Source: Methanothrix soehngenii GP6 (GTDB taxonomy: Archaea; Halobacteriota; Methanosarcinia; Methanotrichales; Methanotrichaceae). From it: a stretch of 64,000 nt of DNA. A model generated the notes under the pieces. The model was not told the origin of the DNA and made no database searches. It saw only the letters and a program-made list of their open reading frames with translations. The stretch lies in NCBI RefSeq assembly GCF_000204415.1, contig NC_015416.1, positions 930,001-994,000 of the forward strand, given 5' to 3'. Of this stretch, positions 4,830 to 11,820 are shown in pieces (positions within the stretch are counted from its first letter, which is position 1; the number at the start of each line of letters is the position of its first letter). Made by a program: the position numbers and the translations under genes.

Positions 4830-6377
4830 TTAGGAGAAGATAAAACTTTCCCCGCCGTAGGCTCTCTCCGAAACCTCCACTACTAAGGATATGAGATCAT
4901 CAAGCTGCCGGATGTAGTAGATCTGGCCAAGACTGGAGAGGGACTCCTCCACATGCCGATCCCTATAGTCCGGGTCTATCGAGAAGAGGACGAACCTTCC
5001 CACCTCCGAGGCCCTCTTGATGTCCTCCCACTCCTGGTAGAGATTTTGAATATGGGTGTCTGTGATGCATAGGATAAGACAGCCCGGCCGGCCTTGGGCC
5101 AGCTCCAGTATCCTCTTTCCAGGTATATGGGTGCGGGTGGCTAAGAACTCGACCAAGACATCCTCAACAGCGTTAAGGTCCCGCGTCCAGCTGGCGAGCC
5201 GATAATTCTCGCTGAAGTTTATCGCCGCCAGCTCCGCTCCCATGGAATGGGCGAACTGGCAGGCCTTGAAGGCGGCCAGGGTAGCCTTATGGGTCTTGGT
5301 GCCCTTACGCGGCCCCTCCATGGAGCGGCTGCTGTCCAGGACTACGAGCAGATCGGGTACCCCCGCTCTTTCCGGCATCATGGGGCTCGTCTCATGATCC
5401 CTCTTGTAGGTCGAGACCCCAGGAATGAGATGGGGGCTCAGGCTCAGGGAGTAGGATACATCCAGATCATAGCAGGGATCGGTTAACCTCCATTTGGCAA
5501 AGCCCGAGGGAGTGACCTCTGAGCGGGCCCTGGGAACCTCTCTGATCTCAATGAAGTAGCTCTGGTCTCGATACCAGCGTTTTAGATCTCCTTTCTGCCC
5601 CAGCACCGCCAGAGCCTCTTCATACTCACCGGCATCCAGGTTCGCGGCACAGAGCAGGGGCACGGCGTCTGCACTGCCGTTCAATATCTCCTGCGCCCGG
5701 ACCGGTCCCTGACCCAGGATGCCTGGCTCCAGTGCCCCCAGGATACGGGCCATCTCCTGGCACTGCCTGGGCCAGAGGCTCTTGTCCCTGATACCAGCTG
5801 AGAAGATCCGCAGGAGATGTTCGACCTCCGGACGGGGACAGGAGGGAAAAGAAGCTCCCCAAAACTCCCTTAAGAAGCCCAGAACCACTCGGTCTAAAGG
5901 ATTAAGGGACCGGCCATCCAGTTCCCCCAGCCTCCTCCAGCCCATCAGCACCAGCTCTTCATCTCGCTCGCTCCTCTCCAGGCGAAATGAGTCCGATACA
6001 ATATCTGAGAAGATATTCACCATCCTGTGGGCGGACTCGATTTGCGATGCCATACCTAGTGTCAAGCCATATGCCGAAACGTATGTTGAATTGGATCCTG
6101 AAGGATGGCCCAGCCCCTTGAGCGCGGCCAGAGCGAGGATACCCGCATTCTCCAGTGATCGGGGGCAGAAGATGTATTGAACGATGAGATGATGGAAGAG
6201 GTTCTCCAGATACAGCGGCCCAAGCTGCAGAGCCTTTTGATCCAAGGTGATCTGATAGTTCGAGAAGGCAAAACTGCCCGACCTGCCTTTTTCGCCCAGA
6301 ACGGGAGGAGGAAGAAGAGGCCAGTGCCAGCTTTCTCGAGACCTCCGCCAGACCTCAATCCAGCCCAAAGACTCCAT
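4830..6377 (-). CDS. VWA-domain protein, third gene of a MoxR-GXGXG-VWA operon
   Basis: About 515 residues from ATG 6377, which has GAGG just upstream; a TTG at 6395 would lengthen it by six residues. The N-terminal 340 residues are an unrecognised, mostly helical region. The C-terminal part is a von Willebrand A domain: MIDAS motif DSSRS at about residue 348, a downstream Thr-rich segment (TRTH) and the second acidic motif CITDTH. All metal-coordinating positions therefore appear intact. VWA proteins paired with MoxR ATPases usually act as adaptors in enzyme maturation or metal insertion (as in NorD-NorQ, CbbO-CbbQ and ViaA-RavA). The start overlaps the upstream gene, implying translational coupling. 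Its target is unknown. Confidence 0.8.
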   Translation of the reverse strand: MESLGWIEVWRRSRESWHWPLLPPPVLGEKGRSGSFAFSNYQITLDQKALQLGPLYLENLFHHLIVQYIFCPRSLENAGILALAALKGLGHPSGSNSTYVSAYGLTLGMASQIESAHRMVNIFSDIVSDSFRLERSERDEELVLMGWRRLGELDGRSLNPLDRVVLGFLREFWGASFPSCPRPEVEHLLRIFSAGIRDKSLWPRQCQEMARILGALEPGILGQGPVRAQEILNGSADAVPLLCAANLDAGEYEEALAVLGQKGDLKRWYRDQSYFIEIREVPRARSEVTPSGFAKWRLTDPCYDLDVSYSLSLSPHLIPGVSTYKRDHETSPMMPERAGVPDLLVVLDSSRSMEGPRKGTKTHKATLAAFKACQFAHSMGAELAAINFSENYRLASWTRDLNAVEDVLVEFLATRTHIPGKRILELAQGRPGCLILCITDTHIQNLYQEWEDIKRASEVGRFVLFSIDPDYRDRHVEESLSSLGQIYYIRQLDDLISLVVEVSERAYGGESFIFS

Positions 6378-7119
6378 CCGCCGCCTCGGGGCCAAAAGCC
6401 TTTCCTCTGATCGTGCCGCCCTTCATCCGCCAGCCCGCTCTCCTTCCTACCCGGCCAAAAACGGTGATCCGACCTCCTTTCATCAAGAGCCCCAGATAGT
6501 CGCCCGCATCACCGTGAATGCGCAGGCTTCCCGAGCTCATCAGCCAGCCAGCCCTCTCACCACAGCTGCCCTGGCAGACCACCTTTCCCCCGGAGCAGCC
6601 CAGTCCCAGGAAGTTGCCGCAGTCACCTTTGATCACTCCCAAACCACCGCTCATCCTGCGGAAGGCATAGTTCCCAGCACCTCTAGATACTATCCCCCCG
6701 CCGGTCATCTCCTGGCCCAGATAGTCGCCTGCCGCTTGGCGAAGATAGATCCTCCCCCCTTTCATCCTCTCGCCCACATGATCACCTCCCATCTCCAGGA
6801 TGATGGTGCCCCGGGATAGCTCCAGACCGGCATAGTTCCCAGCCGAAAGGTGCAGGGGCTGCTGACTCCTCTCTGCGGCAATGCTGGAGAGATGCCCCCA
6901 GATGACCTGATATCTATTGCCCGGATCGGATTCAACCAGCCTTTTCAGGGTCCCAGGATCCTGGGGCAGAAGCTCTTCCACCTCCATCCGGCTGGGCCTG
7001 GTCCCTAACCTCTCTCCCAGGTCATCCAGGCTGAAGATGGGGTCCCCTTTCTCGCTCCTTAGACTGCGTCCCTTGTTCAGGCCGCGGTAGGCATCATCCA
7101 TGAATCTGCCCAGCTTCAT
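6355..7119 (-). CDS. GXGXG-motif beta-helix protein (GltB C-terminal / FwdC-like)
   Basis: A 254-residue protein. From about residue 85 it consists of roughly seven repeats of a pattern G-[DN]-x-[LA]-G-x-x-M-x-G-G-x-[IL]-x-[VI]-x-G. This is the right-handed beta-helix GXGXG repeat seen in the C-terminal domain of glutamate synthase and in formylmethanofuran dehydrogenase subunit C. No catalytic motif is visible; in the known families this domain is structural and lies next to metal- or flavin-dependent subunits. The N-terminal 70 residues contain an LDDLGERLG segment of unknown role. The ATG overlaps the stop codon of the ATPase gene (ATGA) and the 3' end overlaps the VWA gene, so all three products are expected in balanced amounts. 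Confidence 0.75.
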   Translation of the reverse strand: MKLGRFMDDAYRGLNKGRSLRSEKGDPIFSLDDLGERLGTRPSRMEVEELLPQDPGTLKRLVESDPGNRYQVIWGHLSSIAAERSQQPLHLSAGNYAGLELSRGTIILEMGGDHVGERMKGGRIYLRQAAGDYLGQEMTGGGIVSRGAGNYAFRRMSGGLGVIKGDCGNFLGLGCSGGKVVCQGSCGERAGWLMSSGSLRIHGDAGDYLGLLMKGGRITVFGRVGRRAGWRMKGGTIRGKAFGPEAADGVFGLD

Positions 7120-8372
7120 CTCATCTGCTCCAGGGAGGGTATGAAGTCCAGCCGGGCGATGGGATCGTCAAAGATCGACAGCTCTTCCATCGCCCTCCAG
7201 ACGGATGTCTCCCCATCCACCGCTCGGGAGAAGATGATGTTCATATCCGCCCGCTCGTTCATGGTGCGGTTGATGCTTTTTTCTACCAGCTCTGCCACAA
7301 AAGCCAGCTTTCTCGCTCCATAATAGGGAGGCCGATCGATAATGGAACGGATGGGATTTATCCGGTGCCAGATAACATAGGGAGCCACCGCCTTTAAGAC
7401 CTCCAGGTCGGCCTCACGATCCAAGAGATAGGCAAGAGCCCGGGAAAAGGATCTCAGATCCTGGCGCACCCGATCTGACAGCCCCTCGTCCGCCTGCCAG
7501 CAGATGGCCTCTGGATTGCCGCTGTAATGGCAGCCTGCACACAGGCCTCGCGATGGACGGGCAGAGGATAGCTGGGTCTTGTCATATGACGGCGCCCTCT
7601 CGCAGAGGGTGAAGTCCCTCACCAGGCAGAGCACTGCCAGCTCCACCTGAGGCTCGATCTCCTTTTGAGCCACCAGACCAGGCAGGGAATCGAACTCCTG
7701 GAGAGTGAAGCGGGGCAGCTCCTCTGCCAGCTCCCCGACATCCCTCTCCCTTTCAGAGAGGGCCAGCCCTGCCAGGAAGTTGGGCTGAAAAGCGGGCACA
7801 CAAACGGATATGCGGTCCAGCAGGGCCTCGTCCAGGGGATAGGTGGCGGAGAACTCCGGGTTCATGGTCAGATAGTAACAGGTATCTCCTGGCTCGTACA
7901 CCTGCCCAGCATAGCTGATCTTCCTCTTCTGCAGTATCTCCAAGAACAGGTTCTGCTTGCCACCAGGAAAGCGGTTGACCTCATTGATCAGCTTCCAGCG
8001 GGACCTGGACCAAGGGGTCCAGAGCACTGTGCAGGGCTCTTCTGCCTCTCTCATCCACTGTCTGGGATCCAGAAAGCCCACCATCTTCTCCTCCGTCTGC
8101 TCCGGATAGCCGGTCACCATCTGGTCTTCCACCTCGCTGAAGGAGAGGGATAAGAATGAGGACCCGAGCAGATTGACCAGTGTGGTCTTGTTCGCACCCA
8201 TTCCACCGTAGAGGAGAAGGGCACGGTTTCTCAGGCAGGCGTTGGCAATAGAGAAGTAGAGCTGAGAGTTGATCCGCTGATTGCCGACGGCAAGATCCTT
8301 CCTGGCCACATGCAGCCTCAGCTCCTCCAAAGCTCTGATCAGATCTTCGATCTTCTCCTTTGGATCTGGCAT
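7116..8372 (-). CDS. MoxR-like AAA+ ATPase with non-canonical Walker A and B
   Basis: About 418 residues from ATG 8372; an upstream ATG at 8393 would give 425. I prefer 8372 because a TATA-like box (8397-8406) lies about 30 nt before it, which would make the transcript leaderless. Architecture is MoxR/RavA-like: P-loop GGMGANKT, a Walker B-like segment LINEVNR followed by GGKQN, sensor-1 in TMNPEF, and LDEALLDRI with the arginine finger. Two substitutions are unusual: the Gly before the P-loop Lys is Asn, and the Walker B Asp is Asn. A Cys-rich insert (GLCAGCHYSGNPEAIC) follows the AAA core. Together with the VWA and GXGXG genes it probably forms a remodelling or cofactor-insertion machine. 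Confidence 0.8.
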   Translation of the reverse strand: MPDPKEKIEDLIRALEELRLHVARKDLAVGNQRINSQLYFSIANACLRNRALLLYGGMGANKTTLVNLLGSSFLSLSFSEVEDQMVTGYPEQTEEKMVGFLDPRQWMREAEEPCTVLWTPWSRSRWKLINEVNRFPGGKQNLFLEILQKRKISYAGQVYEPGDTCYYLTMNPEFSATYPLDEALLDRISVCVPAFQPNFLAGLALSERERDVGELAEELPRFTLQEFDSLPGLVAQKEIEPQVELAVLCLVRDFTLCERAPSYDKTQLSSARPSRGLCAGCHYSGNPEAICWQADEGLSDRVRQDLRSFSRALAYLLDREADLEVLKAVAPYVIWHRINPIRSIIDRPPYYGARKLAFVAELVEKSINRTMNERADMNIIFSRAVDGETSVWRAMEELSIFDDPIARLDFIPSLEQMR

Positions 8373-8396
8373 AAAAAGAGGGCTATAGTGCATACG

Positions 8397-8406
8397 ATAT
8401 TTAAAT
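8397..8406 (-). promoter_or_regulatory. candidate TATA box of the MoxR-GXGXG-VWA operon
   Basis: On the minus strand the sequence TAATTTAAATATCG lies about 30 nt upstream of ATG 8372. This spacing fits an archaeal TATA box and a leaderless start, and argues against ATG 8393. A second hairpin, CCCTCC-tta-GAGGG (8453-8466), sits just upstream. Confidence 0.4.
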
Positions 8407-8479
8407 TAGGCGAGAGGATGGCGGCAATTGGCCAGACGAAGAGGGAAAACGGCCCTCCTTAGAGGGAAGAAGAGGGACA

Positions 8480-8789
8480 GCAAAAGTCAGTGTAGGAGGG
8501 ATTGGTGATTGACTTTTGCCATCCTTGGGGTTCGACGTAAGACGATATAAACCTTTTGGGTGTAGACGATCAACGTGAGCTTCCGATTCTGTGAAAAGGA
8601 GGGAGGGGCAAAAGTCACCGTACGGGAGGGATTGATGGCCGTCGACTTTTGCCTGCATACTAATACGGCATTCGACGACTTAAGCCTTTCGGCTGCACGT
8701 CGAGATGCTCATCGAACCTCAATTGGAGAGATAATTAGGAGGGGGGCAAAAGTCATTCAAATAGGAGGGATAGGAAATATGACCTTTGC
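8480..8789. repeat. three tandem copies of a conserved hairpin; candidate small-RNA array
   Basis: Three units, starting at 8480, 8608 and 8746 (periods 128 and 138), share a strong inverted repeat, GCAAAAGTCA...TGACTTTTGC (hairpins 8480-8519, 8608-8652, 8746-8789). The loop is conserved and contains AGGAGGGAT or GGGAGGGAT. Each hairpin is flanked on its left by a purine-rich tract with GGAGG or GAGGG. Between units 1 and 2, and after unit 2, a second small stem changes from ACC-TTTT-GGGT to GCC-TTTC-GGC, a paired change that suggests selection on RNA structure. Read on the minus strand, both the loop and the flank carry CCCTCC, which could pair with Shine-Dalgarno sequences. No convincing protein frame covers the array. 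Confidence 0.6.
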
Positions 8790-8978
8790 ACAGATAATAG
8801 TACGATCATCAACGTATATATTTGTTTCCGTCTGAAGCAATCGCCGATGAGGAAACATGCCAAGATAAAATGAAATAACGAACTGGGAAACCAAATTCTA
8901 ATCCTCCATCATAGAGCCATCATATATGCTCAACCTCGGATCAATCCTGCCCTTGAATTTCTCTAAATAAAAGTCCAT

Positions 8979-9440
8979 TTACTCTTTCATCCTCTCCCTA
9001 AGCCCCGCCTCAAACACACCCTCTATAAATCTCTGTTCCGGGAATGGGAGTGGAATAAGCGATATTCACCCATTTCGGGCTTGTACTCTGCAATCAATCT
9101 CTTGGTCATATCTATATCCTCCTGGTTCTCTCCAGGAATTCCCACAATCAGAAGCATATCTGAGACTAATCCAATTTCATCCGCCTGTTTAAAAGTCCTG
9201 ATTATCTGCTCCGGAGTAATTCCATTCCTCAATAGGTCTAAGATGGCCTGGCTTCCACTCTCCACGCCAAAGGCAAGCTCGACACAACCTGCTCGCTTCA
9301 TTCGGAATATCGTCTCAAAATCAACTGTATCCACCCTGGACATGGAAGATCATCGAAAAATAGTATGCAAGATCTGCACCATCACCCACAACCCGGCACT
9401 TGACCGCACCTAGAGGGTATAAGAGATGCGCGACGAAGAA
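8979..9440 (-). pseudogene. decayed radical-SAM (B12-type) gene
   Basis: A 106-residue frame (9023-9343) matches the C-terminal half of B12-binding radical-SAM proteins (GVESGSQAILDLL, IVGIPGENQEDI, YKPEMGEYRLF). The rest is distributed over other frames. Directly after LF, the next frame reads TPIPGTEIY, and the frame after that reads EGVFEAGLRERMKE before a stop at 8979-8981. Upstream of the ATG, a third frame carries the typical FFDD motif, separated from MSRVDTVDF by a stop and a shortened segment. At least three frame breaks and an internal deletion therefore show a dead gene. Where the 5' end lay is unclear; the region up to about 9610 may hold further remnants. Confidence 0.75.
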
Positions 9441-9642
9441 GTCTCCCATTCCGAGACTTGCCGTGAGATCATAATCGATGGAAGAAGTGCCCGGTGTGAA
9501 AGAATAGTATCCAGGTGTGAGGATCGGCCTTCGAAGGCAATCTTTATAAGGGGAGAGGTTGCAGCAGGATCTCTGCTCAGAGTGAGCCCACATCGATAAA
9601 GGTGGTGGTATCAGCAGCACTCTTGAGAGAGACCTTCCTAAT

Positions 9643-9714
9643 GCCAAGGTGGCGGAGCGGCTACGCAAATGCCTGCAGAGCATTACCACTCCGGTTCGAA
9701 TCCGGACCTTGGCT
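9643..9714 (+). tRNA. tRNA-Cys (anticodon GCA)
   Basis: A cloverleaf with acceptor GCCAAGG/CCTTGGC, anticodon arm AATGC-CTGCAGA-GCATT (anticodon GCA) and T arm CCGG-TTCGAAT-CCGG. The discriminator is T, an identity element of tRNA-Cys. CCA is not encoded. A minus-strand frame that crosses it is not a gene. Confidence 0.95.
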
Positions 9715-9865
9715 TCTCGTTTTCAAGTTTTTTACGATCAGCTCATTCTTTCGTATGCGCTTGTCAAATAGCTCCTTCTCAGTTCTGAGATGAGATGAGA
9801 CTCCCCCTGCGAAGGCATCATTTTGTATCAATGTATTTTCCCAATTTGCGAATTTTTTCAGGGAA

Positions 9866-9875
9866 AAGCTTATAT
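9866..9875 (+). promoter_or_regulatory. candidate TATA box of gyrBA
   Basis: AAAAGCTTATATCTG lies about 50 nt upstream of the gyrB start, followed by the ribosome-binding site AGGAGG at 9910-9915. The leader would be about 25-30 nt long. Confidence 0.4.
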
Positions 9876-9921
9876 CTGCTCAAATGAGTGTGATACAGTC
9901 CTAATTATTAAGGAGGCTTAG

Positions 9922-11820
<1,899 letters not shown>

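Follow-up and report, generated by a model that had tools for sequence, protein, structure and literature searches.

A MoxR-like ATPase, a FwdC-related GXGXG protein and a VWA protein encoded as a conserved gene trio in Methanotrichaceae and a second archaeal lineage

Three overlapping minus-strand genes in the DNA analyzed here, a 64,000-nucleotide stretch of Methanothrix soehngenii GP6 (contig NC_015416.1, positions 930,001 to 994,000; hereafter the window), encode a MoxR-like AAA+ ATPase, a FwdC-related beta-helix protein with GXGXG repeats, and a von Willebrand factor A (VWA) protein with an intact metal ion-dependent adhesion site (MIDAS). The trio recurs in two archaeal lineages. MoxR-VWA machines mature or repair metalloenzymes; to our knowledge few of their clients are known, and those of archaea are almost unstudied. 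By analogy with such machines the trio probably assembles or repairs an enzyme, and we see about equal grounds for belief and doubt in the more specific reading that it is a dedicated protein-remodelling machine of the MoxR-VWA (NorQD/CoxDE) kind, in which the FwdC-like protein is a new and fixed third part. The genes are present, overlapping on the minus strand, as the original prediction described them:

7116..8372, minus strand: MoxR-like AAA+ ATPase gene from its conserved start (open reading frame to the first ATG, 7116-8393), from open reading frames and alignment
6355..7119, minus strand: gene for the FwdC-related GXGXG beta-helix protein, whose first 90 or so residues form a conserved region of their own
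4830..6395, minus strand: VWA protein gene, intact MIDAS (TTG start, or ATG at 6377)
8398..8407, minus strand: TATA-like box (AATTTAAATA) of the ATPase gene

The trio is present as a single copy in the 3.03-Mb genome. In the window 4 nucleotides are common to the ATPase and GXGXG genes and 41 to the GXGXG and VWA genes; across Methanotrichaceae the first overlap is mostly 4 nucleotides and the VWA gene mostly starts 23-62 nucleotides inside the GXGXG gene, with the order ATPase-GXGXG-VWA wherever the contig permits reading. Because order and overlaps are kept across the family at 50-78% protein identity, the arrangement is not due to chance. The first ATG of the ATPase gene is at 8393, and the start common to its relatives is M8 at 8372, about 33 nucleotides after the TATA-like box. 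Such a box lies 30-44 nucleotides before the ATPase start codon in 25 of 29 Methanotrichaceae copies, and the trio transcript probably starts from the box at 8398..8407 and is leaderless.

Gene set, order, motifs and co-occurrence were read directly from the genomes, using a VWA protein search of the 238 genomes of the window's class and profile searches with VWA and ATPase in the 393 genomes of its phylum. The trio VWA gene was found in 46 of the 238 genomes, all of them among the 50 of one family (f1), which we infer to be Methanotrichaceae from the public titles of related loci (Methanothrix/Methanotrichaceae), and covering 10 of its 11 genera; no Methanosarcinia genome outside this family had a match in that search. 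Three of the four family genomes without the trio are 69-84% complete, and the fourth, G189, is 93% complete and seems to have lost it. In the phylum-wide search, the VWA profile added six further genomes, all from family f10. Within a second class the VWA gene is present in 14 of 59 genomes (five of six in genus g68 and all in g75 and g77); judging from gene content, this class is probably Archaeoglobi and f10 Archaeoglobaceae. Here the order is mostly ATPase-VWA-GXGXG, sometimes with a second GXGXG gene, the genes being neighbors in g68 and g77. The original prediction of a system, which would have failed had the trio been confined to this genome, is in this respect supported by conservation in several genera of both lineages.

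The ATPase and VWA profiles pick out the same genomes. With a combined ATPase profile, scores of at least 270 bits were confined to genomes that carry the trio, 14 of them Methanotrichaceae and 13 f10; after these the best score in the phylum was 62 bits. In g75 the ATPase gene lies away from the VWA-GXGXG pair but is in the genome in five of six cases; the exception, G488, is 68% complete and is the only f10 genome with the VWA gene and no ATPase match. That the genes co-occur regardless of linkage, within one archaeal phylum, is the best indication of a joint function of the three proteins.

The closest characterized relative of the GXGXG protein is FwdC. It matches Pfam PF01493 (E=1.1e-13) and TIGR03122/FwdC (E=6e-31, 107.6 bits), the latter without reaching the cut-off of 130.65, and GltB at E=2.6e-6 with 25 bits against the 1047 needed for the equivalog cut-off. 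It had been described as made almost entirely of GXGXG repeats. The repeats span only residues 90-240 or so of 254; the first ~90 residues form a separate conserved region that can be loosely aligned between both lineages. Nor is the gene a fragment of a larger enzyme, as had been considered, because all trio genomes tested have a true fwdC in addition.

This kinship bears on the target first proposed, formylmethanofuran dehydrogenase (Fwd/Fmd). A maturase specific to that enzyme, in which the GXGXG protein substitutes for FwdC and the other two proteins aid insertion of the tungsten or molybdenum cofactor, would fit the FwdC relationship, the presence of Fwd in every trio genome tested, a TupABC-like tungstate transporter about 1 kb beyond the trio in genus g9, and an ftr-like gene about 5 kb from the trio at one locus. 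However, neither of these neighbors is conserved, no fwd/fmd (or glt) genes were noticed beside the trio in the loci read, and methanogens of other families have Fwd but not the trio (the Methanosarcina acetivorans control has FwdC). FwdC exceeds its cut-off in 54 of the 59 second-class genomes, only 14 of which have the trio, so that co-occurrence does not discriminate Fwd/Fmd as a client. Because Fwd is equally common in genomes without the trio, the proposed target is unsupported; Fwd is a poor candidate for sole client, and we regard a dedicated Fwd/Fmd maturase as quite unlikely.

The ATPase was recognized as MoxR-like from its profile matches. The window copy matches Pfam PF07726 at E=5e-5, under the curated cut-off; across Methanotrichaceae PF07726 was matched by 22 of 22 ATPases (best E 9.9e-7) and PF07728 by 21 of 22 (best 3.1e-6), the sensor-1 asparagine is present in an invariant MNP, and there is a match to PDB 2r44 (E=1.2e-7). 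Its MoxR-like identity stands, but the original prediction did not mention that neither Walker motif of the window copy is canonical (Walker A GGMGANKT, Walker B INEVNR). All 22 family ATPases have GG[MI]GANK[T][TS] and INE[IV]NR in place of the GxGK[ST] P-loop and DExNR, and so lack the Walker A GxxGxGK[ST] and Walker B DE by which MoxR proteins are recognized. Throughout the lineage other residues stand in for the glycine of Walker A and the aspartate of Walker B, with the Walker lysine and catalytic glutamate retained, and these ATPases may hydrolyze ATP poorly. The second lineage has the canonical GSGKT and DE[IV]NR in 12 of 12.

Both lineages' ATPases also have in common PEQ[TN]EEK (also given as GHPEQTEEK) and a C-x(n)-CxxCH-x(n)-C cluster (C263-C284-C287-H288-C297 in the window). 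The four cysteines and the histidine are kept in the alignments of 22 Methanotrichaceae and 12 second-lineage proteins, one copy (L164) having CDTCHY in place of CxGCHY. This C-terminal CxxCH motif may bind a metal, perhaps as an iron-sulfur (Fe-S) center. A distant relative only (62-74 bits), a 582-residue MoxR-like ATPase with a similarly placed CxxC...C, is encoded in a Methanosarcinia genome, on a contig of 285 kb (L167:3993-5741, minus strand). The unlinked ATPase gene of g75 is followed by a gene for a small putative lipoprotein (L162-L166), and in some genomes the two overlap.

Alignment of 24 Methanotrichaceae VWA proteins bore out the intact MIDAS, whose residues are invariant in all of them; in the second lineage the regular expression fits five of six, and the residues are visible in the alignment in all six. 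The adjacent VWA gene has the MIDAS DxSxS-T-D by which a MoxR-VWA pair is recognized. The window copy matched PF13519 at E=0.018 only, the VWA_CoxE profile matched a single member weakly (E=0.058), and the N-terminal region of about 340 residues had no Pfam match. That region contains an HxxxH (HLIVH) that might be a degenerate metallopeptidase motif, the window copy having Q at the second histidine. MoxR-vWA pairs are the core of ternary biological-conflict systems (PMC7159879), and an immune function might be considered on that account. However, Pfam gives AAA, VWA and GXGXG domains only, with no VMAP, iSTAND, FtsH or effector domain; the VWA protein terminates with its VWA domain, PADLOC returned no match, and the trio is kept at one copy per genome, stable through the family. 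We consider a conflict system highly improbable.

How a client-remodelling machine with a FwdC-like scaffold or placeholder might operate can be sketched from the analogues NorQD, CoxD/E/F and RavA-ViaA; complex formation, client, cofactor and ATPase activity all belong to the predicted part of this scheme. The AAA+ protein would form a ring, and the VWA protein would act as its adaptor, with a MIDAS-bound metal gripping an acidic site on the client. As a scaffold, or a placeholder mimicking the client, the FwdC-like beta-helix protein would keep hold of an incompletely assembled enzyme, which its two partners would open for cofactor insertion or repair. With a metal (perhaps Fe-S) at its C-terminal cysteines, the ATPase could give the machine a sensor of metal or redox state, and the Methanotrichaceae ring, given its replaced Walker glycine and aspartate, might be a slow or nucleotide-gated clamp. 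Several points weigh against a remodelling machine. The Walker motifs, as altered in the window's lineage, speak against an ordinary ATP-driven motor, and metal binding by the ATPase cysteines is predicted from sequence only. No client gene consistently adjoins the trio at the loci compared, where neighbors vary between genera, and the presence of Fwd and Rubisco does not track it. AlphaFold models of the VWA protein and the ATPase were poor (predicted local distance difference test, pLDDT, 46.6 and 37.7), the alignments being too shallow. A MoxR-VWA pair bound to a third, enzyme-like scaffold over a long evolutionary distance would make the client question testable, and the lineage with altered Walker motifs is a natural test of which step requires ATP hydrolysis.

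In genera g1, g4, g5, and g6 a sugar-phosphate cassette is divergent to the trio, comprising a PfkB kinase, a DeoC/LacD-type aldolase, a phosphoglycerate-mutase-like phosphatase, and an HprK-like kinase. Loci with this cassette next to the trio include L053, L059, L050, and L046; no such neighbor of the trio was seen in g7, g8, g9, g10, and g11. The window has a truncated radical S-adenosylmethionine (SAM) gene at 9023-9343 (minus strand) and a possible remnant of a pfkB start at 9372-9410 (plus strand; ICTITHNPALDRT, E about 0.03-0.09), and the cassette of its relatives seems to have been lost or moved here (9023-9437). In g9 (L043, L057, L058) acetyl-CoA synthetase-like genes lie before the trio, and a deoxyhypusine-synthase-like gene, like the TupABC-like transporter, lies beyond it. 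Neither transporter nor cassette is conserved as a neighbor. A COG0731-like radical SAM gene by the ATPase gene in g75 and g77 was rejected as a fourth component, being present also in trio-free genera such as g79 and g124 and absent from most g68. The cassette would suit a pair resembling the Rubisco activase CbbQ-CbbO, joined by one more subunit, but it is missing beside the trio in the five genera just named, and Rubisco is found in 51 of the 59 second-class genomes regardless of the trio, so that co-occurrence fails to single it out as a client. We give such an activase very little credence.

Between the ATPase gene and the next genes, three tandem units of about 60 nucleotides lie on the ATPase strand, and similar units recur elsewhere:

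8464..8519, minus strand: small-RNA-like unit 3, hairpin with UCCCUCC loop and CU-rich tail; TATA near 8544-8552
8592..8652, minus strand: small-RNA-like unit 2
8730..8789, minus strand: small-RNA-like unit 1
L171:7406-7466, L206:4608-4670, L209:4309-4370, L240:3112-3172: unit copies by nurA-herA-mre11

We collected 73 copies from Methanotrichaceae, chosen by arm similarity, after excluding three false or masked ones. Each has a TATA-like box (permissive hexamer list), which in 65 of 73 lies 31-32 nucleotides before a hairpin, GCAAAAGUCR...YGACUUUUGC. The hairpin loop resembles UCCCUCCUAC, a tail resembling CUCCCUCC usually follows, and CUCCC motifs mark the unit. Folding z-scores of single copies were -3.6 to -11. 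Stem changes that keep pairing in the ATPase-strand RNA include A-U to G-U in 14 cells and U-A to U-G in five, with 15 two-sided changes in one pair, counts that the selection by arm similarity inflates. A covariance model found 2-13 units per genome in 50 of 50 Methanotrichaceae genomes and 12 single marginal matches among the remaining 188 of the class. The Rfam scan of 8360-9940 returned tRNA only, with no match for the units, and we found no paper on them. We rejected the upstream palindrome as a DNA operator because the fixed TATA distance and the strand-specific G-U changes fit an RNA unit better. Since the ATPase gene has a TATA-like box of its own, the units look like separate small-RNA genes of an undescribed family and not a leader; their CCUCC motifs could pair with Shine-Dalgarno sequences. 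Such a family, present in every Methanotrichaceae genome that we examined, would add a new regulator to this major group of acetate-using methanogens.

The array lies upstream of the ATPase gene in most genera; it was not seen there in g8, g9, and g11, where copies lie elsewhere. In several genomes the unit also recurs immediately upstream of nurA-herA-mre11, a repair operon (named by eye), and in the same orientation. In G227 (L215:4517-4576) the slot of this operon holds a 1049-residue AddB/PD-DExK-like gene, also named by eye, and at the trio-free L198 (G189:C100) three units lie before pfkB, oriented as toward the missing ATPase gene. The repair-operon site might be taken to favor a general chaperone for stress or complex assembly, akin to RavA-ViaA and working without metal insertion; RavA-ViaA acts on respiratory complexes (PMC3893208), and the trio looks self-contained in neighborhoods that differ between genera. 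However, the units sit at unrelated genes too, and the narrow phyletic range and FwdC-like partner better suit a specific client, and we judge a general chaperone unlikely. Returning to the remodelling machine, we propose only tentatively that the trio is a distinct MoxR-VWA class, with an obligate FwdC-related part, an ATPase whose C-terminal cysteines bind a metal (possibly as Fe-S), and, in one family, a non-canonical nucleotide clamp as motor and an upstream tandem array of an undescribed small-RNA family.

The analogy with MoxR-VWA maturation factors drawn at the outset is reasonable, with the difference from NorQD, CbbQO, and CoxDE that client enzyme genes are not in the trio operon. The accompanying claim that no such system had been described stands for a GXGXG third partner, which seems undescribed and on which we found no paper, but not for third proteins generally. 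The ternary conflict systems (VMAP, iSTAND, FtsH; PMC7159879) likewise join MoxR and vWA to a third protein, which is unrelated to that of the trio, and the trio has no effector domains. GXGXG repeats are common to FwdC/TIGR03122, the C-terminal domain of GltB, and the trio protein, which differs from FwdC in its sub-threshold score, its own N-terminal region, and the separate true fwdC in the same genome, and in the loci read lies beside neither fwd nor glt genes. RavA-ViaA is also an operon of a MoxR ATPase and a VWA protein; no similarity was found beyond the AAA+ and VWA folds, and the GXGXG protein is extra in the trio. CoxD-CoxE-CoxF of Oligotropha is a three-gene AAA+/VWA maturation set for [CuSMoO2] cluster assembly (PMC4240915, PMC3471820), its client being a molybdenum enzyme; the trio has no cox genes, a GXGXG beta-helix as its third protein, and the one weak VWA_CoxE match. 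NorQ-NorD (CGN subfamily), one nearest working analogue (PMC9976466; PMC13036017), likewise sets a MoxR-type ATPase by a VWA protein whose MIDAS is intact and whose N-terminal region is long, and its MIDAS residues and Walker B glutamate are essential (PMC9976466). The trio has no nor genes and is set apart from it by the GXGXG third part, the ATPase cysteine motif, and, in the window's lineage, the altered Walker motifs.

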